A stretch of DNA of 64,000 nucleotides from Bdellovibrio reynosensis (GTDB lineage: Bacteria; Bdellovibrionota; Bdellovibrionia; Bdellovibrionales; Bdellovibrionaceae): contig NZ_CP093442.1 of the NCBI RefSeq assembly GCF_022814725.1, positions 1,302,001-1,366,000 of the forward strand. The letters are read 5' to 3'. Below are positions 22,148-34,237 of the stretch, piece after piece (the stretch's first letter is position 1; each line of letters begins with the position of its first letter). Made by a program: the position numbers and the translations under genes. The notes beneath the pieces were generated by a model that was given only the letters and a program-made list of their open reading frames with translations, had not been told where the DNA came from and did no database searches.

Positions 22148-23227
22148 TTAGTTATCCCAAGGGCGTTCTGCTTGCTCCATCAAGTAGCGCAAGAAGTGTT
22201 CATAATTTTCTAAAGTTGCCGCTGTCAAAGCGGGTCCTGCATTTTGATCCATCATCGCAAGGGCTTTAGCATAGTTTTTTAAAGCCTTAGAGCCAAAAGC
22301 CGCCCCATTTGGATGATTTTTTGAAATAACATCAAGATCTTTATCTAAACGATTTGCATAACAAGTCAAAAACTCTGTGTTCGTTCTAGTTCTTTGGCAT
22401 TCTTTTGCCCTTGATACAAACCCAGCCACAGGGAAATAGATCGCAGTAATGGAATCACCATTGACCAATCTTTCAAGTGAAACGCTGGCATTGTCATACT
22501 GAAAAATCGCGCAGTTTAAAAGATTGCGCTTGTTACGCTGACAAATATTCGCAGCATAACTAGGATAGTTTTTATAGAATTCATTCATCGCCGTTGTGAT
22601 CGCCTGGCGAACTGTTGCATCGCCTTTGCTGCGCTCTAATAGAACCTGCAACCCTGCTTGCCATGATGAAACAAATCTTACCTGCGCGCGCTTTAAAGGA
22701 TCTACGGGAGGCGCTGGTTGTTCAGGCGGAGCTGGAGGCGCTGGTCTTTCAGGAGGTGCTGGTTGGGGCGGCGCTGGCTGTGGTGGTGTCGGCTTCGTGC
22801 CATTTTTCAATACATCCGCAGTGCGCGCACATTCTGGAATTTGCAAACAATCTGCAAAATCAAGACTGTGATTATTTAAATCCATGAAGTTTTCTAAAAG
22901 CAGATTTCCGTTAGTGAACATCTTCACGTAAAGATAGTTATTGCTAGTAACACCCGCATTGAACTCAATAAAAAGCTCTACGGCCCAAGTTGGCGCCCCG
23001 TCACTAGCCAAGTTGAATTTGTACCAGCCATAGCCTTGGGCCAATCCGTTTGCACATGTCCCGCTAAATGAAGCCTTTGCAGGTTTTCGCCACGTCAATG
23101 TCGAGGGATGTGACAACGTACAACCTTCATCGGTTTTTACTTGATCGGACGAATTAAAAATTTCAGGTGCTTCTTGCATGGCAAAGACGGGGGTCGCAAA
23201 CAGAAAACAAAGTAGCATCATTTTCAT
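22148..23227 (-). CDS. Exported MORN-like/helical protein, paralogue of the 547-aa protein
   Basis: This 359-aa protein has a signal peptide (1-16), a N-terminal domain (about 35-135), a Pro-rich linker (147-176, mostly PAPP repeats) and a helical C-terminal domain (180-359) with Cys residues. The stretch FSGTCANGLAQGYGWYKF resembles a MORN-type turn. The C-terminal domain carries the signature NHPNGAAFGSKALKNYAKAL. A second copy of the same layout, with the helical domain duplicated, is encoded at about 31.8-33.4 kb. GGAGG precedes the ATG. Function is unknown; the extracytoplasmic location is clear. Confidence 0.8.
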   Translation of the reverse strand: MKMMLLCFLFATPVFAMQEAPEIFNSSDQVKTDEGCTLSHPSTLTWRKPAKASFSGTCANGLAQGYGWYKFNLASDGAPTWAVELFIEFNAGVTSNNYLYVKMFTNGNLLLENFMDLNNHSLDFADCLQIPECARTADVLKNGTKPTPPQPAPPQPAPPERPAPPAPPEQPAPPVDPLKRAQVRFVSSWQAGLQVLLERSKGDATVRQAITTAMNEFYKNYPSYAANICQRNKRNLLNCAIFQYDNASVSLERLVNGDSITAIYFPVAGFVSRAKECQRTRTNTEFLTCYANRLDKDLDVISKNHPNGAAFGSKALKNYAKALAMMDQNAGPALTAATLENYEHFLRYLMEQAERPWDN

Positions 23228-23493
23228 GGTGAATTTCCTCCTGGTTTAATGGTCTGGGTTTTTATACCAAATCACTTTTGAAGAATGCAGAATCATTCGA
23301 GCTAATTATGGAAATGTAATTGCAGATGAATCTTTGCAAGTTTTTATTTTGCGAATCAACATGGCTTATCCTTCTCATTCTAGGACGCTGTTCTGGAACA
23401 GATATTAGTCCGATTTTTTTGATATGTGATTTATCGATATTAAGGAATCAACAATATCTTTAGAGGGGGTGGAGAAAGACCGATAAAACTAAT

Positions 23494-26400
23494 GTGATTA
23501 AGAGCTTATTCCGCAATCTCAGTTTGAGACTTTTCTTCGGCGTTGCTGTTGCGTTGCTAAGTTCTGCTTGTACTCTTGAAACCACCCTTGCACCGACCAA
23601 AGAAGCTTTTGAATTAGAAATTTATCCGACCTTTGCTTCGACTGTTTCTAAAAGTTCAACGCAAACGTTTACTTTTTCAGAGAAAAATTTCGGCGCGAAC
23701 ATAGTACGCTTTGAATGTTCCTTAGATAATCTGGTGTGGGAAACTTGTGAAAGCCCCGTGACCTATTCAGGCTTATCAGAAGGCCGCCACACTTTCAGCG
23801 TGAAGGCTATAGATGCTTCCGGCGAAGAAAATATTGGCGGTCAACACGAATGGACGGTGGATACTGTGCCGCCAGTTCTTAGTGTTGATTCTCCACTGAA
23901 TGACAATGATCTGCTCATTTTAAACTCTTTGCAGGCAACCTTAAGCGGAACGTGTTCAGAAGACGGCCAATTAGTCACTTTAACCGGCGCAGCTGTTGGT
24001 GTGACGACATGTACTGCCAACGCCTGGAACATTCAGGCAGATGTAAGTGCAGCGGTCGATGGCGATTTAACCTTTATGGTCAGCCAAGGCGATATTGCTG
24101 AAAACTATACGACCGTAAGCCGCGTTGCCACCAAAGACACAACGGCTCCGGTTATAGCCTGGGTCAGTCCCGCAACAGATTTAGAAGGCGGAGCCGCGAT
24201 CACCGTCACTTGGAAAGTCACCGAGCCTCATGGAAGCGCCTCCGAAAATGTGATTTTAGATTATAGTGGTGATAATGGAAGCACATGGACTGTTCTTTCA
24301 ACTCAAGGATCTTTAAATGGGACCATCTCGGCGCAAACTTATAATCAGGCCTGGACCGCACCGAGTGCAAGCGTTGCCGGGGCCATTTTGCGTTTACGCT
24401 TAGCCGATGCCTTAGGTAACTTAGTCACATCCACTAAAACTTTTGCGATTGATACAGCAGCACCGGTTTTAAATTCTTTGGTCTTGGCCGATGGTAATGA
24501 AAACGTAGGGCTTCCTTCCCTGAATGCTTTATTGTCAGTGACGCCTTCAATTTCTGCGATTTCTCACTATCGTATTTCAGAAAATAATACCTTCGCAGAT
24601 ACCACATGGGTGGCCTATACCTCTCCGAACCTTACTTTCTCATTAAGCAAAATTGGCGCCTTAAAAACAGTGTACGCCCAGGTGAAAAGTAGCGCCGGCA
24701 TTGTTAGTAACGTTGTCTCAGACACCGTGACCCTAGAATACGGAACTCCTCCGGTAGCTTTAATCACCTCACCTACAGAGGGTGGGTCGTATTCTCCGGG
24801 TGCGGTGATGAATATTGCTTGGCAATGTTCCTCTAGTTCAGGCTCGGTGGCTTTAGCCACAAATCCAATTTCAAGCATTGAGTATACGGTCGATGATGGT
24901 GTGACGTATCACGTGATTGCGACAAACCAAACGAACAATGATACTGCGACCACAGGCCATTATAATTGGACGGTGCCAGCAGCGACGCCATCAGGCCAAA
25001 CGATCACGGGTACAACACCTATTCGCGTGTTAGTAGGTTGTAAAACGGCCGCTGGAATTATTGCCACGGGTTTATCTGGTTTCCAAAATTCGATTTGGAA
25101 AGTTCTTATTGGTAGTCCTGGAAACATGGATTATGGAATCCACTTAAGCGCTGCTGATATGACGACGTGGACTGCGGTTCACGGGGATTCTGCCAATAAT
25201 CTATATTCTGGATCTAAAAACGGTATTCTAAAAGTCAATCGTCAGACGGGTATCGTCGAACAGTGGTTGGGAAATCTTGAATCTGCAGGCTGCCCGACTC
25301 ATTCAGTGGCAAGCTTCACCCGCCCGCGCATTTTGGATATTTCAAATGGTGAAATGACCATTGTTTCCGGAATGTGTGGAACTATCACTCGCGTAAAAAT
25401 TTCGGATAAAAGTATCATATGGAACCGTAGTGTTCCCCATCTTTCATGGAGTTCTAATCAAACTTCCACTGAGGGTTTTTATCATAAAGCAGGTTATTAC
25501 TATTTTGCCGTAATTAACACGATCGGCACAGTTCTGGCGCTGTATGAACTTAATCTAAACTCTATTAGTAGCACCCCAAAACTTGTGATGGGTAATGGCT
25601 CTAGCTGTTCTAACACCTTGCCTGTGGTGGGCAGTGTTTCTTCGACTCTGCAGATTCATTGTACGCTAGATTCAAATTGGTGGAATGTTTCTTATGATCG
25701 TCAGAAAATTTTTATTTATAGCGTGACAGGCTCGACAACCAATCAAGTAACGCTGACTTTCAATAGCACTACTGCAAATTATGAAGTAACGGCTGTAGGT
25801 ACGGCGACAGCTCCTTGCACCCGCACGGTGATGATTGGAAATGATGCTTCAAAATACTATTGCATCCGTCATGCGGGACAAGGGCGCAATGTCACCTATT
25901 TTGATACTGCGACCAATCAGCTTCATACGACGCACGTAACTTTAAGTACATTTAACAATCTTGGTAATATGCAGATGCGGTTGGGATCTTCCGATTCAGC
26001 GGCCTACGTTATTTCAGGCGTGACCAATGAAATTTTCGAAGTGAAACATACAGGAACCGCTTGGGAACAATCTAATATCGGTGGGACTCCGCTATTTACC
26101 TATGGGAATGGTACTGACCCAACGAAGGTGGCTTTCACCTCACTAGCGGGCTTAGCGTATGACCCTGTGAATAAGTTTTTATACACTCGTGGAATCAATC
26201 ACATTCGCCGGATGAAAGTGGATACAACAACAACACCAGCGACTCCATTTATTTCCCTGATCGAAACTGGGATGAGCACGAACGCGGCGTTATCTAATAG
26301 CGGATCTTTTGGTGGAATTGCTGTTAACAAAACCGGCACTGCAATCGTCGTAAATCAATCAGTCAGTCCGGTTTATTATTGGAAGGCACTTGATTTAACC

Positions 26401-27141
26401 ACTTGGAATTCTGGTGCCAGCACCGTGGGTGGAGGTCAAATTTACCTTAACGGTGGCACCACGGCTGCCTACCCTACCTTAGGTACTTCTTTTGCTTATA
26501 ACGCTGGCGTGAACCTGCAGGATTGGGGTTCTACAGCGACGTTCTTAAGTGATGGTAAACTCTATTTCGTCGGCTCAAGCAATGATAGCTGGGATCAGAA
26601 TCTTTGGATTTTCCAAAGTTCGGGGCCAACCACTATCACTTCTGTGGCCGGAGCTACCGGCGCTGCAGGATATTCCTCTATCGGCGGCGGCGGCGCTACG
26701 GCGCTGGGCACCCCTCTGACTCGCATCTATGGCATGCAGTCAGCAACTAATAATGATTTGTTAGTATTTGATGCTCATCGTTTAAGAAGAGTTTCAGTAG
26801 TCACCGAAAGCGGTGCACCGAAAGTTTACGATGAAATCGATTTTTCAACTTTCACGAATTACCCAGGGAATTTACCCTGGGTCCATGCCGTGCAGGACAC
26901 TGCGACTGGCTGGAATTACTTTGTCGTGAATGAAGACACGGCTACAGGCAGGGCCACCCAAGTATGGGCCGCCCGTGCTGCTGAAGGATTTGTTCAAATT
27001 CCGATCACGGGTTTAAAACTTACCGGAATTCAAAATGCCACTCGCGGCAAAGGCCTGGGCTTAGAAGTGACGCCACTTGGTTTACTTCTTTTAGATACAC
27101 CGAAGAAACGTATCTTAACGACACCTCTAAAACCTTTATAG
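23494..27141 (+). CDS. Large surface lipoprotein with Ig-like and propeller-like parts
   Basis: This 1215-aa protein has a lipoprotein signal (LLSSAC, Cys26). It starts with an Ig-like domain of the type FECSLDN...CESPVTY...GRHTFSVKA (about 55-120), followed by three more Ig-like modules to about 540. Then comes a long beta-rich region (about 540-1215) with repeated Gly/Asn/Trp strands, consistent with a propeller-type or YncE/NHL-like fold. Such proteins are typical Bdellovibrio cell-surface proteins. The start is GTG; an ATG two bases upstream is out of frame. A GGAGA lies about 20 bases away, so the start is somewhat uncertain. Confidence 0.8.
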   Translation: MIKSLFRNLSLRLFFGVAVALLSSACTLETTLAPTKEAFELEIYPTFASTVSKSSTQTFTFSEKNFGANIVRFECSLDNLVWETCESPVTYSGLSEGRHTFSVKAIDASGEENIGGQHEWTVDTVPPVLSVDSPLNDNDLLILNSLQATLSGTCSEDGQLVTLTGAAVGVTTCTANAWNIQADVSAAVDGDLTFMVSQGDIAENYTTVSRVATKDTTAPVIAWVSPATDLEGGAAITVTWKVTEPHGSASENVILDYSGDNGSTWTVLSTQGSLNGTISAQTYNQAWTAPSASVAGAILRLRLADALGNLVTSTKTFAIDTAAPVLNSLVLADGNENVGLPSLNALLSVTPSISAISHYRISENNTFADTTWVAYTSPNLTFSLSKIGALKTVYAQVKSSAGIVSNVVSDTVTLEYGTPPVALITSPTEGGSYSPGAVMNIAWQCSSSSGSVALATNPISSIEYTVDDGVTYHVIATNQTNNDTATTGHYNWTVPAATPSGQTITGTTPIRVLVGCKTAAGIIATGLSGFQNSIWKVLIGSPGNMDYGIHLSAADMTTWTAVHGDSANNLYSGSKNGILKVNRQTGIVEQWLGNLESAGCPTHSVASFTRPRILDISNGEMTIVSGMCGTITRVKISDKSIIWNRSVPHLSWSSNQTSTEGFYHKAGYYYFAVINTIGTVLALYELNLNSISSTPKLVMGNGSSCSNTLPVVGSVSSTLQIHCTLDSNWWNVSYDRQKIFIYSVTGSTTNQVTLTFNSTTANYEVTAVGTATAPCTRTVMIGNDASKYYCIRHAGQGRNVTYFDTATNQLHTTHVTLSTFNNLGNMQMRLGSSDSAAYVISGVTNEIFEVKHTGTAWEQSNIGGTPLFTYGNGTDPTKVAFTSLAGLAYDPVNKFLYTRGINHIRRMKVDTTTTPATPFISLIETGMSTNAALSNSGSFGGIAVNKTGTAIVVNQSVSPVYYWKALDLTTWNSGASTVGGGQIYLNGGTTAAYPTLGTSFAYNAGVNLQDWGSTATFLSDGKLYFVGSSNDSWDQNLWIFQSSGPTTITSVAGATGAAGYSSIGGGGATALGTPLTRIYGMQSATNNDLLVFDAHRLRRVSVVTESGAPKVYDEIDFSTFTNYPGNLPWVHAVQDTATGWNYFVVNEDTATGRATQVWAARAAEGFVQIPITGLKLTGIQNATRGKGLGLEVTPLGLLLLDTPKKRILTTPLKPL

Positions 27142-27145
27142 ACCT

Positions 27146-27634
27146 TCAATGTCTTGGATTCTTTTCGGGATTAAGATCAAACATCGCTTTGTCGGTTTCC
27201 ATATCCACAGGGACAGAGTTGTTTTCGTGGATGATCATCCACTTCCCGTTTTGTTTTTTTAAGCCTGCTGTATAGCGAGCAAAGACATTCATGGTCTGTC
27301 CTTTGTCATCTGCAAAATTCATGTGCGTGACAGCAAAAAATATCGCCAAGTCCTCGCTGACAAAAGTTTTTTGGTAGACAAATTCATACTGAACCGCGCC
27401 TTGGGTGTATTGTTCAAACATTTCCCAGTTCTTGCGATACTCTTGGGCCCCTTCGATTTTCATTGGTGGCATAAGATCAAATGCAACCACATCGGGAGCG
27501 TAACAGGATAGAATTTTCTCGATATCTCGTGAACGAATGCCGTCGGCCCATTGATCCATCAGGGCACGCACTTCAGCTTCCGCAGAAGCACTTGATCTAT
27601 TTTTATTTACTTGGGCATTGGTTTGTGGTTCCAA
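27146..27634 (-). CDS. SnoaL/ketosteroid-isomerase-like protein
   Basis: This 162-aa protein of the NTF2-like superfamily (YybH/SgcJ type) has the helix EVRALMDQWADGIRSRDIEKILSCYAPDVVAFD and the strand set GAVQYEFVYQKTF, LAIFFAVTHMNFA, NVFARYTAGL and GKWMIIHENNSVPVD. The closing HENNSVP motif is common in this group. It is a single gene, convergent with the large surface lipoprotein only four bases away. Confidence 0.85.
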   Translation of the reverse strand: MEPQTNAQVNKNRSSASAEAEVRALMDQWADGIRSRDIEKILSCYAPDVVAFDLMPPMKIEGAQEYRKNWEMFEQYTQGAVQYEFVYQKTFVSEDLAIFFAVTHMNFADDKGQTMNVFARYTAGLKKQNGKWMIIHENNSVPVDMETDKAMFDLNPEKNPRH

Positions 27635-27736
27635 AGGACCTCCGTGGGTTTTCCGCCTATAATGGCAGGAAAATAAAGGTGATCAATTGACCTTGGAAAA
27701 AAGCAGAATGACTTTTATGCAGCTCTACAAAAAGTT

Positions 27737-29230
27737 TTATTCAAACTTAATGGATCCCTTCCATTGCGGATCATCAGTCCAAAAGAAGCTAGTGAAATGG
27801 GAAATCATTTTATCGCGCAGCTCTTCGCGGGATTTTTTATTTTCATCACTCCATGCGAAACGCAGAAAGTTTTCGTTGTGGGTGTCAAAATTTCCTAAGA
27901 AAAATGCAACATCCAATCCATGGACTGCTCCGAAGACTTCATTCCATGGATAAGGTGTTTCATCCCAAGCAAATGTATATCGATACGTAGGAGTATAAAC
28001 TTTGGCACCCAGGTAAAGTTTAAACAAAGTGTTTTCTAGAGCTAGGGAGCTTGACTTAGTCATTGCCTTAAATTTCAACGGATGCACCGACAATAGGTCA
28101 TCGATCTCAAGACCCTTTGGTGTCTTTTGAATCCATTGCCACAATTCTTGCTGCGTGGGTTTTAAGAAAGAACTTCCCACCATGTAAGTGCCTTCATCCC
28201 TAGTTAACCCCATGATCAAAGGAACTTGCTGAAAGTCCCCTAAAGCGGCGCCCTCAAGGCCGTGGGGAAAGACAGTTCCATCATGAATATGTTGAATTGG
28301 AATGGTAAAGTCTTGGGCTTTGATGATTTCTTCGGTGCTACGGGAATATAAAAACTCTCGCAGATATTTTTCGCTTTTTGATTTTATAAAATCTTGGGCA
28401 TCATCATTGTTATTAGCAAGACCTGCGTTGACTATAAGATTTTTCAAAAAATCATCGGCGCGGCATTCAGCAATTTTTCGCGGGTAAGAATTTGGAAGCC
28501 CAGAAGAACATATAGCTTTATGAAATAAATTTTTCGATAATGGCGTTTGCAGTAAACCCCATACATTCATACAACCCGCAGATTGTCCCATGATCGTGAC
28601 ATTGTTAGAATCGCCACCAAAGGCCTGAATATTATCTTTCACCCAGCTCAACACTTGGATTAAATCCAAGGTGACGTAATTTCCGGATTGATCCAGTTTA
28701 TCGCCGCTATTGATTAACGGCGAAGCCATAGCGCCAAGCATGCCTAAGCGATAGTTCATGCTCACAAATACGATTTTGCTTTTTTCAGATAAATAAGCAC
28801 CATCATAGATAGGGTCTGAAGCCGTTCCCTTAAGGTTTGAGCCACCATGAATCCACACCACAACAGGAAGTTTTTCTTGAACTTTGCGAGGCTTCCAGAC
28901 ATTAAGGTAAAGACAGTCTTCCTTCCCAACCGGCTTATCAAATTCCGAAGCCGGAACACGGGAAAAGAAATTTCCTTTTTGCGGGCACGCGATGGCAAGT
29001 TCTTGGGCTTTCAAAACTCCTGACCAAGACTTTACCGCGCGCGGAGCTTTCCAACGTAAATTCCCTACTGGCGGCGCCGCATAGGGAATGCCTAAAAAAG
29101 CTTCGGTGTTTTTTAGTTGAAGTCCTTCAACCCATCCGTCTTGAACTTTGACTTGTGGATTTTCTAATCCGTGGGCTGTAAGAAAGACAAGACTTAGAAT
29201 TACTGAAACCATTAATGAAGTAAGTCGCAT
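27737..29230 (-). CDS. Exported type-B carboxylesterase
   Basis: This 497-aa protein has a signal peptide ending near AHGLENP. It is a para-nitrobenzyl-esterase/carboxylesterase: the oxyanion-hole motif VWIHGGSNLKG (about 125-138), the nucleophile elbow IMGQSAGC (Ser217), an acid in the LTRDEGT region and the catalytic His in GAVHGLD. Such enzymes cleave short-chain esters. The start chosen is the ATG six bases after GGGGG; eight codons upstream another ATG is open but less supported. The next gene begins about 125 bases away. Confidence 0.87.
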   Translation of the reverse strand: MRLTSLMVSVILSLVFLTAHGLENPQVKVQDGWVEGLQLKNTEAFLGIPYAAPPVGNLRWKAPRAVKSWSGVLKAQELAIACPQKGNFFSRVPASEFDKPVGKEDCLYLNVWKPRKVQEKLPVVVWIHGGSNLKGTASDPIYDGAYLSEKSKIVFVSMNYRLGMLGAMASPLINSGDKLDQSGNYVTLDLIQVLSWVKDNIQAFGGDSNNVTIMGQSAGCMNVWGLLQTPLSKNLFHKAICSSGLPNSYPRKIAECRADDFLKNLIVNAGLANNNDDAQDFIKSKSEKYLREFLYSRSTEEIIKAQDFTIPIQHIHDGTVFPHGLEGAALGDFQQVPLIMGLTRDEGTYMVGSSFLKPTQQELWQWIQKTPKGLEIDDLLSVHPLKFKAMTKSSSLALENTLFKLYLGAKVYTPTYRYTFAWDETPYPWNEVFGAVHGLDVAFFLGNFDTHNENFLRFAWSDENKKSREELRDKMISHFTSFFWTDDPQWKGSIKFE

Positions 29231-29355
29231 AACTGCCCCCGTCATGGGATTCAAGATAGACTTGGTTTCGGGACTGATTCAAAGAAAACTGATTAGAACA
29301 ACATCATCATGTTGTGCTGCATTTAATTATTGCGAAAATTCCCATGAAGTCTTGG

Positions 29356-29937
29356 TTATATCCAGTGGACTTCAACTGTTGCTTGAGTCTGCAATTCCTT
29401 TTCAGGGGGACGAATCGGTTTTACGGCGCGAAGCTCAACATGCATTTCTCTGACAACATTTCTGTAGTGTCTGATGCGATGAAAAAGTTCGGCTTGAGTC
29501 AATTGCCCATGCTCTGCCTGAGAAATAAAAAGCGTGATTTTTTCTGTGCGCCAATCACCAAGGTAACCATAATCAGCGCGCCAATAATAGGGCTGAGAAA
29601 AATAACCGAAGCTGCCAAGATAATAAGGGCGCACGTGGGTTGGATCCTCCCACGCGTCATCACTTGTTCCATAAGGAAGGCGAATTGTGAGTGATGCCTC
29701 TGGGGTCGCCACGCGGTGAAGCTCTTGCATCAGCGGCAAAGTGTCTTTGATATGCTCAAGCACGTGTTCCATTTTAAATTCGCTGATCGAGGAATTTTCA
29801 AACGGTAAAGGCATTTCCACACAACGGTCTAAATCAAACTCAAGATCAATTCCCCTCCCCTTTTTTAGATCTAAATTGATCCAACCTTCTAAAGGGAATC
29901 TGCCACATCCTAGGTTCAGTCTATTGGCCACTGTCAT
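29356..29937 (-). CDS. SAM-dependent methyltransferase
   Basis: This 193-aa class I methyltransferase has motif I RLNLGCGRFPLEGW (residues 6-19), an acidic strand end LDLKKGRG, and the FKMEHVLEHI helix of the methyltransferase-11/UbiE-type group. TPEASLTIRLPYG follows in motif IV-V position. The substrate is unknown. The first ATG sits right on CGGAG; a GTG two codons later is spaced better and could be the real start. Confidence 0.83.
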   Translation of the reverse strand: MTVANRLNLGCGRFPLEGWINLDLKKGRGIDLEFDLDRCVEMPLPFENSSISEFKMEHVLEHIKDTLPLMQELHRVATPEASLTIRLPYGTSDDAWEDPTHVRPYYLGSFGYFSQPYYWRADYGYLGDWRTEKITLFISQAEHGQLTQAELFHRIRHYRNVVREMHVELRAVKPIRPPEKELQTQATVEVHWI

Positions 29938-30065
29938 CTCCGTTGCTGCTTAAGGGGTATTACAGACTGGGAACTGCTGTAATGCAAGCCCGGGTAAGGT
30001 AACTAGAAACGTCACTTTTTTGGGGATATAAACAGCGATCAGGTCTATTAGCGATTTTAACCCAT

Positions 30066-30104
30066 ATTCGCTGGGTAAGGCCTTTGCATTGTAACCCAGC
30101 GAAT
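30066..30104 (+). promoter_or_regulatory. Leader hairpin upstream of a small exported protein
   Basis: ATTCGCTGGGT / ACCCAGCGAAT is a perfect 11-bp inverted repeat with a 17-base loop, followed by TTTTAAG. It ends nine bases before the GGAGG that precedes the next ATG. It could be an attenuator, an mRNA-stabilising leader or an operator. Confidence 0.5.
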
Positions 30105-30124
30105 TTTAAGTCGGAGGTTCTAAA

Positions 30125-30463
30125 ATGAAAGCCCTATTTGCAGCATTGGTTATGACCCTGTCCTTTTCCCAAGCATTTGCGGATGGATATATCACGTGCA
30201 CGGCTATTGACCCAGATAACGGTCAAAGAGACGACATCATGGCCCTAGAGGCTGACATCGCCTTTATCTTAACTGAAAAAGGTGACGACGGAGTCCTTTC
30301 CTATATCGGTGAAAAAAACGGAGTTCGCAATTTTTCGAATTCCAAAGTTCAGGTGATCATGAATAATAACGATCATACTGTGACCGTGATTCAAAGGGCC
30401 ACAGGCGCAAGCAAGGTCCACACCGAACTAAAATGTGTGGGATCAGGTGATGATATCGAATAA
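30125..30463 (+). CDS. Orphan small exported protein
   Basis: This 112-aa protein has a signal peptide (1-19, AFADGY). The mature part is beta-rich with two Cys residues (ITCTAID and ELKCVG) that could form a disulfide. No family is recognised. Strong GGAGG with ten bases to the ATG. It ends directly in a terminator stem that overlaps the stop codon. Confidence 0.75.
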   Translation: MKALFAALVMTLSFSQAFADGYITCTAIDPDNGQRDDIMALEADIAFILTEKGDDGVLSYIGEKNGVRNFSNSKVQVIMNNNDHTVTVIQRATGASKVHTELKCVGSGDDIE

Positions 30464-30492
30464 AAAAAGCCCCGAGAAGGGGCTTTTTTTTT
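30462..30492. terminator. Bidirectional terminator
   Basis: AAAAAAAGCCCC / GGGGCTTTTTTT has a five-base loop and long A and T runs on either side. It serves the 112-aa gene and the convergent 107-aa gene. Confidence 0.92.
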
Positions 30493-30494
30493 GA

Positions 30495-30818
30495 CTAGAA
30501 CGTTGAATAGCAACGGCTAGAAGTAATGACTTGGTCAGCGTCGCGGACCATGTAAAGGCAGCTATACTCTGAAGAGTGCAAATGAACACGAACATGAGGG
30601 ATCACATCCCCTTTAGGAGTGATCACTTGGGAAGGTTGAACTTCCACGTCTTGAACGTGAGCCAGGCTGCACATTTCGCTTAAAGCATATTTTTGGTGAG
30701 TCGCCACTGTGTTTAGGGCTTTCATAAATCTTTCTTTGTGTTCATATTTGCTGCAAAGGTCGCCAGCTAGGGCTGCAGAAGACACCAAGAAAATCATTGT
30801 CGCTAGTAAAAGACGCAT
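30495..30818 (-). CDS. Orphan small exported protein
   Basis: This 107-aa protein has a signal peptide (1-18, AALAGDLC). Four Cys residues (DLCSKY, EMCSLA, YSCLYM, SRCYS) probably pair as two disulfides. No family is recognised. AGGAG before the ATG. It is convergent with the 112-aa exported gene and shares its terminator. Confidence 0.73.
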   Translation of the reverse strand: MRLLLATMIFLVSSAALAGDLCSKYEHKERFMKALNTVATHQKYALSEMCSLAHVQDVEVQPSQVITPKGDVIPHVRVHLHSSEYSCLYMVRDADQVITSSRCYSTF

Positions 30819-31035
30819 TTTTTATCCTCCATTCGGGTTTAAAAGCCTGGGGAAGGTAATGGACGCAGCCTAAGTTCTCAATGACTATCCCCTGGAACCC
30901 ACAAATCGAAAATGCATTGAGAAAGAAAGAGCGGAGCCTTAGGGTGATATCCATTTGACGCGCTCCATTTCAAGTTTGAAAAGATATCTAAAATTCTTTC
31001 ACTTCTGACTCTATCTTTGCCCTTTTAAAGGCTTA

Positions 31036-31049
31036 GAATGTATACATTC
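31036..31049. promoter_or_regulatory. 14-bp perfect palindrome, candidate operator
   Basis: GAATGTATACATTC is a perfect even palindrome 30 bases before the ATG of the next gene. Its size and AT-rich centre are typical of a dimeric repressor site. No family can be named. Confidence 0.45.
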
Positions 31050-31079
31050 GTTGTAAACGTCCGCTAGAGAGAGGCCCAA

Positions 31080-31754
31080 ATGTCAGCAAAACCGTCATTC
31101 CGTGACAATGTTGATGAGAACATTAAAGAAGAATTCATGACTGTAACTTTAAGTATTTCAGAAATGCTTAAAGCTGAAGGCAAAACTGTTCGTCCCTTTC
31201 TTTCAGGCATTCCGTATTTCTCTCAGCTACCTGCAGAAAAAAAATTGAACGTTCTTCAACAAGTGCGCTTTTATCAAGAACTTTGCCAAAGCCACATCAG
31301 TGAAGGATATAAAATCAACGACAACCTTTCATTTACTTGGCGCGCGTTCCGCAAATTAGGTTTGACCCCAAGTTCAGATCTTTTCAATTACGTTGAAAAA
31401 GAAGATATCGTTGAGATTTATTCTAAAGACCAAATTCAACTTTTCAGAAACTTTAATTTCTTTGACTGCTGTTCGTACACTTTAGAAGAGCTGCACACGT
31501 TGGAATGGTGGACTTTGTTTGAGCGCGATGCTCAATACAACCAGATGATCTTAGATGAAGCTTTAAAGGCTATTTCTGGTGATGTTCACGAAACTTTTGA
31601 GCCAAACGTTCCTTGGCACCCATTGCGCGAGGCCCGCTCTGCTGAAAAGTTAACAATGCATATGGGAATTCGTCGTATGGCACCCGTCTATAAAAACAAA
31701 CGGGTTGAAGGATTGGTGGTTCTTGAAAGAGCCACTGTCTTGAATAAAGAATAA
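31080..31754 (+). CDS. Hypothetical cytoplasmic protein, weak PAS-like region
   Basis: This 224-aa protein has no signal. The N-terminal half is helical. A stretch from about 110 to 165 (YSKDQIQLFRNFNFFDCCSY, then TLEELHTLEWWTLFERD) has the rhythm of a PAS-type domain with a strand-helix pattern and Cys pair. That is only a suggestion. AGAGAGAGG before the ATG. It is single and ends at a terminator; the upstream palindrome may control it. Confidence 0.6.
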   Translation: MSAKPSFRDNVDENIKEEFMTVTLSISEMLKAEGKTVRPFLSGIPYFSQLPAEKKLNVLQQVRFYQELCQSHISEGYKINDNLSFTWRAFRKLGLTPSSDLFNYVEKEDIVEIYSKDQIQLFRNFNFFDCCSYTLEELHTLEWWTLFERDAQYNQMILDEALKAISGDVHETFEPNVPWHPLREARSAEKLTMHMGIRRMAPVYKNKRVEGLVVLERATVLNKE

Positions 31755-31777
31755 AAAGCCCTGAGAAGGGCTTTTTT
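31753..31777. terminator. Bidirectional terminator
   Basis: AAAAAGCCC / GGGCTTTTTT has a six-base loop and lies between convergent genes, ending both. Confidence 0.88.
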
Positions 31778-31781
31778 CATT

Positions 31782-33425
31782 TTACCAAGCTACTGACGCT
31801 TGTTCATTCAGATAGAAAATCATCGCTTCGTAATTTTTTGTAACGGCGGCAGAATAGCCTTCCCAATTATCAAAATAGGAGATCGCCCAGGCATATCCAG
31901 CCAGTGCTTCGGCGCCAGCCTTGCCACCATTAGGATGTCTGCGCAGAACGGATTGTTCTAGTTCATCGATCTTTCTTTTCCAACAGCGATTATGGTCGCG
32001 ATTGTTTGGATTGCCCCCGCATTCATATAGAAATGAAGTGTAGCTTGTCGGAAAAGCCGCTTTGTAAATCGAAGTGCCTTTTAAGAAATTGGACATCGAT
32101 AAAACCGCTTTTTCATATTGGTAAATCACGCAAGCAATAACCAAAGCTTTTTTACGAATGCACATCCACGTCGTGTACGAATCATAATTGTCTTTAAATT
32201 GCTGCATACTTAAAGCGATGCCATCTTTAATGTTCTGAGCACCATTTTTTTCTCGGTCCACCCGTTGCAACATGTGATCGGTTGTTCTTTGCACAGCCAA
32301 GTGGAAAATTTGTTTAGCTTGTCCCATGTCAGTAAACTTGGTGGGAAATTCTTCTTGGGGCTTGGGTTGAGGCTGCGGCGCAGGCGGCTCTGGAACGCGA
32401 GACGACTTGACCAAATCCCACACATACCAGGCCAGTTCTTCACGCAAATGACTTACTTGCTGCATATACCTAGAGCCAGAATTTGCTTCTAAGTAAGCAA
32501 GTGCATAAGCCAAGGCTTCAAAAGCCTGTGATGCATATTTGCCGGCAGTTGGATTTTTAAGTTTGATTCTTTCTTCCAGTGCTTCAATTTCCTCGGTCCA
32601 ACAAGTATTAAAATTGTTTGCGCTCTGGTCATTGCATTTTTCCGATAGTGAGTCAGATGATGAATGCAAGCTTGCCAGCTCTTTATCGAGGTCATGTTTA
32701 TAGTGAATGGTTCTGAATAAATTCGCTAGCTTTCTTAATTGCTGAATTTCACACTGTTCGTTCGCTCGTCCATTTTGCTGGCAAATGGCGCGCGTGAAGG
32801 GAAAGAAGTTTTGAATGAATTTATCCATTTCTTCTTTGATGGTAGGGCTTAGATCAGCATCACGGTCCACAGCCGCAATCGCACATTCTGCCGCTTCCGC
32901 CGCCCAGGTTTTTAGAAGTTCCTGATTTTCAATCAATCCTTCTCGGTCTTCGTGTTCTTCCTCAACTTCCTGACCAAGACAATTTGTGGGCTGTATTGGT
33001 TCTGTAACTTCACTTTTCAGAAACTCTAAAGTACGAGTGCATTCTGAAATCTTTAAACAAGAATCCAAGTCCACCTGATAGCCACCAAGTTCTGCAAAGC
33101 CTTCAAAGCTAGCCTCGTTGTCCGTGTACATAATAACGTAATAATATTTATTAGCCACTCGGCCTTGATCAAATTCGATAAGAATTTCTACGCGTGAATC
33201 CGCAAATCCTTCTTTAGCAAGATCAAATTTATACCAGCCATACCCTTGCGCTGTTTTATTGGCACAGTCCCCGGTCCAAACTGATTTATCCGGACGTTGC
33301 CAAACTAATTCGGAAGGATGAAGGACCGTGCAACTTGTTGGTGGTTTTGGTGGTAGCGGTGGACTGCCGGCAAATCCTATTTGGGAAAAATTAAAAAACA
33401 AAACAAACAGGAAGAGTTTTTTCAT
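31782..33425 (-). CDS. Exported MORN-like protein with duplicated helical domain, paralogue of the 359-aa protein
   Basis: This 547-aa protein has a signal peptide (1-19). The N-terminal domain (about 30-140) with WTGDCANKTAQGYGWYKF is clearly homologous to that of the 359-aa protein. Two helical domains follow (about 165-345 and 365-547), separated by a short Pro-rich linker (PEPPAPQPQPKPQ). Each carries the same signature (NPTAGKYASQAFEALAYAL and HPNGGKAGAEALAGYAWAI). It overlaps the upstream trypsin-like gene by four bases (ATGA), so the two are translationally coupled. Function unknown. Confidence 0.8.
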   Translation of the reverse strand: MKKLFLFVLFFNFSQIGFAGSPPLPPKPPTSCTVLHPSELVWQRPDKSVWTGDCANKTAQGYGWYKFDLAKEGFADSRVEILIEFDQGRVANKYYYVIMYTDNEASFEGFAELGGYQVDLDSCLKISECTRTLEFLKSEVTEPIQPTNCLGQEVEEEHEDREGLIENQELLKTWAAEAAECAIAAVDRDADLSPTIKEEMDKFIQNFFPFTRAICQQNGRANEQCEIQQLRKLANLFRTIHYKHDLDKELASLHSSSDSLSEKCNDQSANNFNTCWTEEIEALEERIKLKNPTAGKYASQAFEALAYALAYLEANSGSRYMQQVSHLREELAWYVWDLVKSSRVPEPPAPQPQPKPQEEFPTKFTDMGQAKQIFHLAVQRTTDHMLQRVDREKNGAQNIKDGIALSMQQFKDNYDSYTTWMCIRKKALVIACVIYQYEKAVLSMSNFLKGTSIYKAAFPTSYTSFLYECGGNPNNRDHNRCWKRKIDELEQSVLRRHPNGGKAGAEALAGYAWAISYFDNWEGYSAAVTKNYEAMIFYLNEQASVAW

Positions 33426-34237
33426 AGGTTGGCTCCATTAACCAAATAGGGTTTATAAAAATCTTGAACTGAAAACAGGTTTAACGATTTATCCCAACCG
33501 TGAAAATCATCCTTAGTTACCGCTAAATTTGAAATGGCAATTCCACACAAATGCAAACGGCCGCCCTGCTTAATAAACAACGGTCCCCCTGAATCCCCAA
33601 AATAGAAACTATTAGTTGGGCTTCTTAGGGTATAAATGGCTTCTTTGTTGGCCTGATCTATTTTGACATCTAGTCTTTTTAAAACTGGTGAAGAGGAACC
33701 AGTTTTAGAAGTCGCACCATAACCAGCAGCGGTCACTGGCGCACCCAATTTTATAACTCCATACCAGTCGCTAACGATCGGCACAGGTCTAAATGAAGAC
33801 GGAATGTCTTCATCAAGTAAAACAACGGCAATATCATAGTTTTGCCTATTCTTTTTTTCTGGAAAGTACTTGGGATGAATAATGTGATGAGCCGCTTTAT
33901 ACCTAATAGCTTTATCTAAGCCTTCACTATTACGATTAAAGATGACGGATATATTTACTTTCGCATCTGCTCGGTCCTTATCAAAACAATGGGCCGCTGA
34001 TAGCAAAACTCTCGGGGCAATAAGAACTGCTGTACAGCTTCCCGATTTTAATTTTACTCCATCCGCTAGAATAGTTATGCCTAGTTTTACTGTATGAAGG
34101 GCAATTTCATCGTTTTCAGCAACGATAGATCCACCTATGATTCCATTCGGATTTTGATCTGAGACTGAATGCCTTGGCGACGGCGCACACGATGTTAGAA
34201 GAAAAGAAATTAAAAGCAGACTTATTAAATATCTCAA
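33422..34237 (-). CDS. Trypsin-like serine protease lipoprotein
   Basis: This 271-aa protein has a lipoprotein signal (LLTSC, Cys17). It is an S1-family protease: the activation-type IIGG (33-36) and the triad His83 (SAAHC), Asp135 (NYDIAV) and Ser216 (GDSGGP). It would act in the periplasm or at the outer membrane. The start is TTG, supported by GGAG at the right distance. The next gene, the 547-aa paralogue, begins in its last four bases; a chaperone, inhibitor or substrate relation is possible but unproven. Confidence 0.9.
   Translation of the reverse strand: MRYLISLLLISFLLTSCAPSPRHSVSDQNPNGIIGGSIVAENDEIALHTVKLGITILADGVKLKSGSCTAVLIAPRVLLSAAHCFDKDRADAKVNISVIFNRNSEGLDKAIRYKAAHHIIHPKYFPEKKNRQNYDIAVVLLDEDIPSSFRPVPIVSDWYGVIKLGAPVTAAGYGATSKTGSSSPVLKRLDVKIDQANKEAIYTLRSPTNSFYFGDSGGPLFIKQGGRLHLCGIAISNLAVTKDDFHGWDKSLNLFSVQDFYKPYLVNGANL

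Follow-up and report, generated by a model that had tools for sequence, protein, structure and literature searches.

A mosaic member of an exported orphan protein family, encoded behind an S1-fold protease gene in Bdellovibrio reynosensis

The locus

The window analyzed here is a stretch of 64,000 nucleotides of Bdellovibrio reynosensis (NZ_CP093442.1, positions 1,302,001 to 1,366,000), part of a 3.58-Mb, one-contig genome. Three genes on its minus strand concern us: P0003, for a 271-amino-acid (aa) serine protease of the S1 fold, predicted to be an outer-membrane lipoprotein (33422..34237); P0002, for an exported 547-aa protein (31782..33425); and P0001, for an exported 359-aa paralog of P0002 (22148..23227) with no S1 protease gene within 5.5 kb. 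P0001 and P0002 represent a new orphan family—small, exported, fast-evolving and almost strain-specific—and P0002, which lies directly behind the protease gene, reads by sequence as a mosaic of two types of paralog within it.

The stop codon of P0003 and the start codon of P0002 share the sequence ATGA (33422-33425), and a GGAG at 33433-33436 provides P0002 with a ribosome-binding site of its own. The original prediction, of a four-base overlap with the gene of a complete S1 protease lipoprotein and of translational coupling between the two, is borne out on both counts. The pair is flanked by a divergent gene upstream of P0003 and a convergent gene (31080-31754) downstream of P0002, and a hairpin with a T-run behind it, terminator-like on both strands, stands directly 3' of the P0002 stop (31753..31776), which is also where the convergent gene ends. 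By sequence, therefore, P0003 and P0002 form an isolated two-gene operon. It is the position of this hairpin that matters, rather than the number of hairpins, of which three were seen against 3.8 expected by shuffling. A promoter scan returned no site ahead of P0003 on the minus strand, which is weak evidence either way.

A family of exported paralogs, and a mosaic

P0001 and P0002 are 30% identical over 301 aa (E 1e-39) across two shared regions: an N-terminal domain of ~114 aa with four Cys that resembles a MORN motif (hereafter the N-domain), and a helical domain, also with four Cys. Both proteins begin with a signal peptide, recognized by eye, and we infer disulfides between Cys. In P0001 the N-domain (22793..23134, placed by alignment and modeled separately) is joined by a Pro-rich linker (22700..22792, limits approximate) to a single helical domain (22151..22612, from alignment and model). 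In P0002 the N-domain (33003..33344, by alignment) is followed by a first helical domain (32391..32906), a Pro-rich linker (32343..32399, limits again approximate) and a second helical domain (31785..32276). Its Pro-rich stretches stand ahead of the N-domain and between the helical domains, not between the N-domain and the first of these. A common architecture had been foreseen for the two proteins; paralogy, signal and both domains hold good, and the linker of P0002 was misplaced.

Searched with P0002, the genome yields two further full-length paralogs, of 352 aa (L014:6351-7409) and 379 aa (L015:6304-7443), as well as a 396-aa and a 414-aa protein, both distant. The helical domain of P0001 also matches the second half of P0002 (29% identity, E 7e-22), and it had been noticed from the outset that P0002 carries this domain twice. 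Two copies there are, but they are just 22.6% identical to each other. The first is 34.1% identical to the domain of the 379-aa paralog, with which it shares an NCLGQ motif ahead of the domain; the second shows 33.6% identity to the P0001 domain, and is of the type found in P0001 and the 352-aa paralog. In a tree of helical domains—six rows with long branches—the node joining the first domain of P0002 to the 379-aa paralog is supported at 96/97, and the remaining nodes are unsure. Because the two domains are so dissimilar and belong to different types of paralog, simple internal duplication does not account for them. For the N-terminal region of P0002 (residues 1-148) the nearest relative is the 352-aa paralog, with 52% identity, and no other full-length member has acquired a further helical domain of a different type.

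That the proteins fit no described family had been expected, and so it proved: Pfam, NCBIfam, PHROGs and PADLOC offered no fitting family for P0001 or P0002. Weak Pfam and NCBIfam rows (DUF725, GIT1_C, DpdH and others) lay far under the cut-offs and were inconsistent among members, and a literature search found nothing joining Bdellovibrio with 'MORN repeat'; the one paper that mentions both Bdellovibrio and MORN is on an unrelated matter.

The N-domain

In an alignment of ten proteins, six with one N-domain and four with two, four Cys and three Gly are invariant in all 14 rows. The core motif, W-x-G-x-C-x-N-G-x-x-x-G-x-G, in which G25, C27 and G34 are invariant and W23 and G36 nearly so, conforms to the Gly/aromatic type of MORN motifs, G-x-x-x-x-G-x-x-x-G-x-G, except that Cys replaces the second aromatic. 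All 14 domains hold a single motif in their ~114 aa rather than a tandem run of ~23-aa repeats.

Modeled alone from three sequences, the N-domain of P0001 folds with a predicted local distance difference test (pLDDT) score of 86 and a predicted template modeling score of 0.78, into five strands and a closing helix. By profile it matches MORN4 (6jle) weakly (E 0.019). Its top seven structural rows include junctophilin-2, twice, and chains of the cilium or flagellum axoneme (Z 4.3-4.8), proteins that contain MORN repeats; the other three, including the first (Z 5.1), are chains of chloroplast import complexes. Foldseek returned MORN proteins at E 0.24 or worse and, among viral models, giant-virus 'MORN repeat' proteins in the first rows at E 0.026 and worse. 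The Pfam MORN profile, PF02493, found no match in the genome, in P0001 or P0002, or in any of the 14 N-domains taken individually. Since the pointers from sequence and structure are weak and the profile finds nothing, we call the domain MORN-like, weakly so, and do not assign it to the MORN family. It resembles known MORN proteins (MORN4, junctophilin-2, the radial-spoke proteins) in its motif, in the weak match to MORN4 and possibly in the five-stranded meander of the model, but differs from them in its single motif, its four invariant Cys, its export and its fusion to an unrelated helical domain.

The helical domain

Four Cys are invariant in all six rows of the helical domain. The model of whole P0001 has a pLDDT of 65.8, with the helical domain within it at middling confidence. 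The best structural row is 6ar7, an uncharacterized protein of Burkholderia thailandensis (VIA Z 8.5, root-mean-square deviation 5.1 over 169 residues), but identity is 6% and the Foldseek E-value 0.044, and a Z of 8.5 is too low to tell a true match between helical bundles from a chance one. Rows for rhodopsin, ferritin and the like reflect common helical arrangements and were set aside.

Distribution

The family is narrowly distributed. Among 59 genomes, this one included, one more full-length copy was found, in Bdellovibrio bacteriovorus kdesi, and a pattern scan of 84,980 species genomes, in which our own genome was possibly not included, matched the kdesi locus (NZ_CP102930.1) alone. By profile, the helical domain occurs in two of 140 genomes of the order: here, as five domains in four proteins, and in kdesi, as one. 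The N-domain is somewhat more widespread, in 11 of the 140 genomes of the order and the same number of 368 of the phylum, namely 10 of 24 members of the genus and one genome of the same family. Where read, the N-domain proteins outside this genome and kdesi carry a short Cys-rich domain behind a single N-domain or a pair of them. Kinship between that domain and the four-Cys helical domain was considered and is not shown (hhalign probability 0.8%). No homologs of the family were found in viral contigs, plasmids or phages.

Some single cases deserve mention. A fragment of an N-domain with one internal stop lies at G011:C4:939931-940140. In two genomes, G006 and G002, a cluster of type II secretion or pilus genes, gspK/gspL-like by eye, encloses a gene with two N-domains that runs on the other strand (L073:6285-7520 and L019:5580-6827). 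In our own genome an exported 442-aa protein with no Pfam match (L016:9387-10715), encoded ~1.1 kb from the 396-aa N-domain protein, bears ATHG and DYSCHSG motifs that we take to be reminiscent of caspase-like peptidases.

The protease

P0003 matches Pfam Trypsin above the cut-off (1e-18) and keeps IIGG at position 33 and the triad of His83, Asp135 and Ser216, so membership of the S1 family is secure. It has an LTSC lipobox, by eye. Trypsin specificity is set by Asp at position 189; counted back from GDSGGP, this S1-pocket position is Ser in P0003. 'Trypsin-like', as the protein had been called, then describes its fold alone. A paralog at C1:64982 likewise has Ser at this position, which is Gly in three of the S1 proteins that G021 encodes. 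A PADLOC row for LmuA (4e-14) spans residues 42-245, which is the protease domain, and we do not read it as a sign of defense.

The genus has many exported S1 proteases, and this genome alone has 19 S1-family loci. Of those studied, BspK (Bd1962) is reported to be an active serine protease of Bdellovibrio (PMC5288813). Bd2269, a secreted S1 enzyme implicated in prey exit, lyses Escherichia coli from within (PMC12546842), an example of the harm that such enzymes can do to cells. P0003 is like these in S1 fold and signal, but its best paralog in the genome is 33% identical, its identity to proteins of 38 other genomes is at most 36% among the matches listed, and it alone of the 19 has a partner of the P0002 type. 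P0003 itself, as well as its pairing with P0002, appears from sequence comparison to be specific to this genome.

Elsewhere in this genome, a P0003 paralog (L076:2709-8432) lies amid three paralogous, exported, Cys-rich proteins of 490-511 aa, of no known family, encoded on the opposite strand.

A protective partner for the protease?

To our knowledge, the protection of Bdellovibrio against its own digestive enzymes has been explained for one cell-wall enzyme system only (PMC4686830). The genus secretes many proteases, and the coupled pair is a candidate for self-protection that lends itself to testing. The balance tilts somewhat toward a functional relation between P0002 and P0003, because the two are coupled in an isolated operon. 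What form such a relation might take is a matter for more tentative statements. Our best guess, which we put forward with reserve, is that P0002 acts in the predator's envelope as a self-protection partner that holds P0003 inactive. The N-domain would be a MORN-type beta-meander, pinned by disulfides, that docks the protein to the envelope, and the four-Cys helical domains would be binding modules. Translated together with P0003, which would be anchored in the outer membrane, P0002, with two such modules, would stay in or on the predator's own envelope, bind the protease and keep it inactive until prey is met.

The precedent for self-protection by a downstream gene is Bd3459/Bd3460. There the gene of the endopeptidase Bd3459 is followed by that of Bd3460, an exported protein of the ankyrin type that binds the enzyme and inhibits it. 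Bd3460 binds Bd0816 too, although the gene of the latter lies elsewhere, one inhibitor being able to act on several enzymes, and upon the loss of Bd3460 the predator rounds itself up (PMC4686830). The two pairs are alike in genus, in co-transcription and in order, an exported enzyme gene followed by that of an exported, repeat-type protein. They are unlike in enzyme class and in fold, and binding and inhibition, demonstrated there, are guesses for P0003/P0002. Bd3459/Bd3460 is common to periplasmic predators, whereas P0003/P0002 occurs in a single genome.

Several observations weigh against an inhibitory partnership. The family members have no match, by sequence or fold, to known protease inhibitors, and the full-length model is weak. 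The overlap is not special in itself, since at two of the other 18 S1 loci the gene shares one base with the same-strand gene upstream of it. When the 5.5-kb flanks of 16 N-domain loci were scanned on both sides with an S1 profile built from 25 proteins, an S1 gene adjoined just one, P0002. The other 15, including all other full-length copies, adjoin none, and the basic function of the family therefore needs no linked protease. If ~3,400 genes are assumed, any one gene would lie beside one of 19 S1 genes by chance with a frequency of ~1.1%, and one of six family genes would do so with a frequency of ~7%. With one locus in 16 adjacent and chance at this level, the S1 link is a single case, not a family rule, and weak in general; inhibitors encoded beside their enzymes across the family are not what we find. 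The wider idea, of the family as partners of proteases, is not supported: homologs that never neighbor proteases had been named in advance as a refutation, and all except P0002 are such. Concerted action of protease and partner survives as a reading for P0002 alone.

The details of the scan are these. Three loci of one syntenic group (G012, G021 and G022) lie 3.3-3.5 kb from S1 genes, from which several other genes separate them, and 12 of the 16 have none within 5.5 kb, although one of these (G010) is on a contig of only 8,534 bases. The other five copies of this genome and the kdesi copy are among those with no S1 gene at that distance. Conversely, within flanks of ~1.5 kb on each side, no family member accompanies any of the 18 S1 loci other than P0003. 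Other null results bear on inhibition less directly: Pfam inhibitor families gave no match over the cut-off for P0001, P0002 or the helical domain; no known inhibitor is named near the top of the structural lists, an absence that excludes nothing; and a literature search on protease inhibitors in Bdellovibrio turned up, judged by title, no such partner.

A second protease link seemed to offer itself in the slot occupied by the 379-aa paralog, which in G021 and G022 carries three tandem S1 genes. Among 15 further members of the genus, such triplets were found in five genomes in all (G010, G011, G012, G021 and G022; L071:3133-5847, L072:1789-4374, L082:6439-8976, L089:4763-7348 and L090:7628-10219). 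In ten of the 15 the slot contains a Dps gene, and in some it contains other cargo. Among the ten are G018, G001, G009 and G014, whose flanking nucleosidase matches that of this genome with the highest identity, and in our own genome the 379-aa paralog adjoins the slot's Dps gene. As the contents of the slot vary among members of the genus, we dropped this link.

Alternatives

It is also possible, and the contest with self-protection is close to a tie, that the adjacency is incidental. The family would then consist of general binding proteins, of the envelope or facing the prey, adhesin-like or scaffold-like, that have spread into variable sites in this lineage, and P0002 would merely have landed behind a protease gene whose promoter it shares. 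The copies do lie in unrelated neighborhoods, the 379-aa copy in a hypervariable slot whose cargo is different in relatives; the S1 genes missing from the surroundings of the other copies, and the chance of ~7%, speak for this too. What it leaves unexplained is that the coupling is a four-base overlap with its own ribosome-binding site in two genes isolated as a unit, and that the coupled copy is the unusual form with two helical domains. Among the full-length members P0002 is the only one with a second helical domain of another type and the only one beside a protease gene, so extra binding module and protease coincide, in a sample of one. Even were the link incidental, there would remain an orphan exported family, expanded at the level of the strain, whose MORN-like domain with its Cys is represented in none of the family libraries searched.

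Less probably, P0002 assists P0003 instead of restraining it, as a helper in secretion or folding, or as a surface anchor or targeting scaffold that the protease requires for activity. The evidence of coupling serves this idea equally well, and MORN-like modules are mostly for interaction or membrane contact; but P0003 comes with its own lipoprotein signal and a full triad, and 18 further S1 genes of the genome get by without a neighbor of this kind. That P0002 is a substrate, cut in its Pro-rich linkers to release helical domains as prey-acting fragments, is improbable: long linkers do connect compact, Cys-bearing domains, but paralogs without a linked protease have similar linkers, and profile and structure searches gave the helical domain no effector-like match.

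We rank self-protection by P0002 first, since it accounts for the coupling and makes the more specific statement to test. A bolder version, to which we give rather little credence, would make the family a new class of self-protection proteins, held on the envelope by the MORN-type domain and clamping S1 proteases with the helical domains. P0002 would be the two-headed cognate inhibitor of P0003, and the unlinked paralogs would act in trans on other S1 enzymes, as Bd3460 does on Bd0816.

Surroundings

Foreign origin is not indicated by composition: P0001, P0002, P0003 and the two other full-length paralogs range from 39.6 to 44.8% G+C, against 43.0% for the window. The RluA-type pseudouridine synthase gene next to the pair (named by eye) is also present in 11 others of 28 genomes, and in the nine inspected it had no P0003-like or P0002-like neighbor and no common gene order. 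The window also encodes a 1215-aa lipoprotein (23494-27141), relatives of which (38-45% identity) are encoded by G012 and G011 close to this same synthase gene (L093 and L098).

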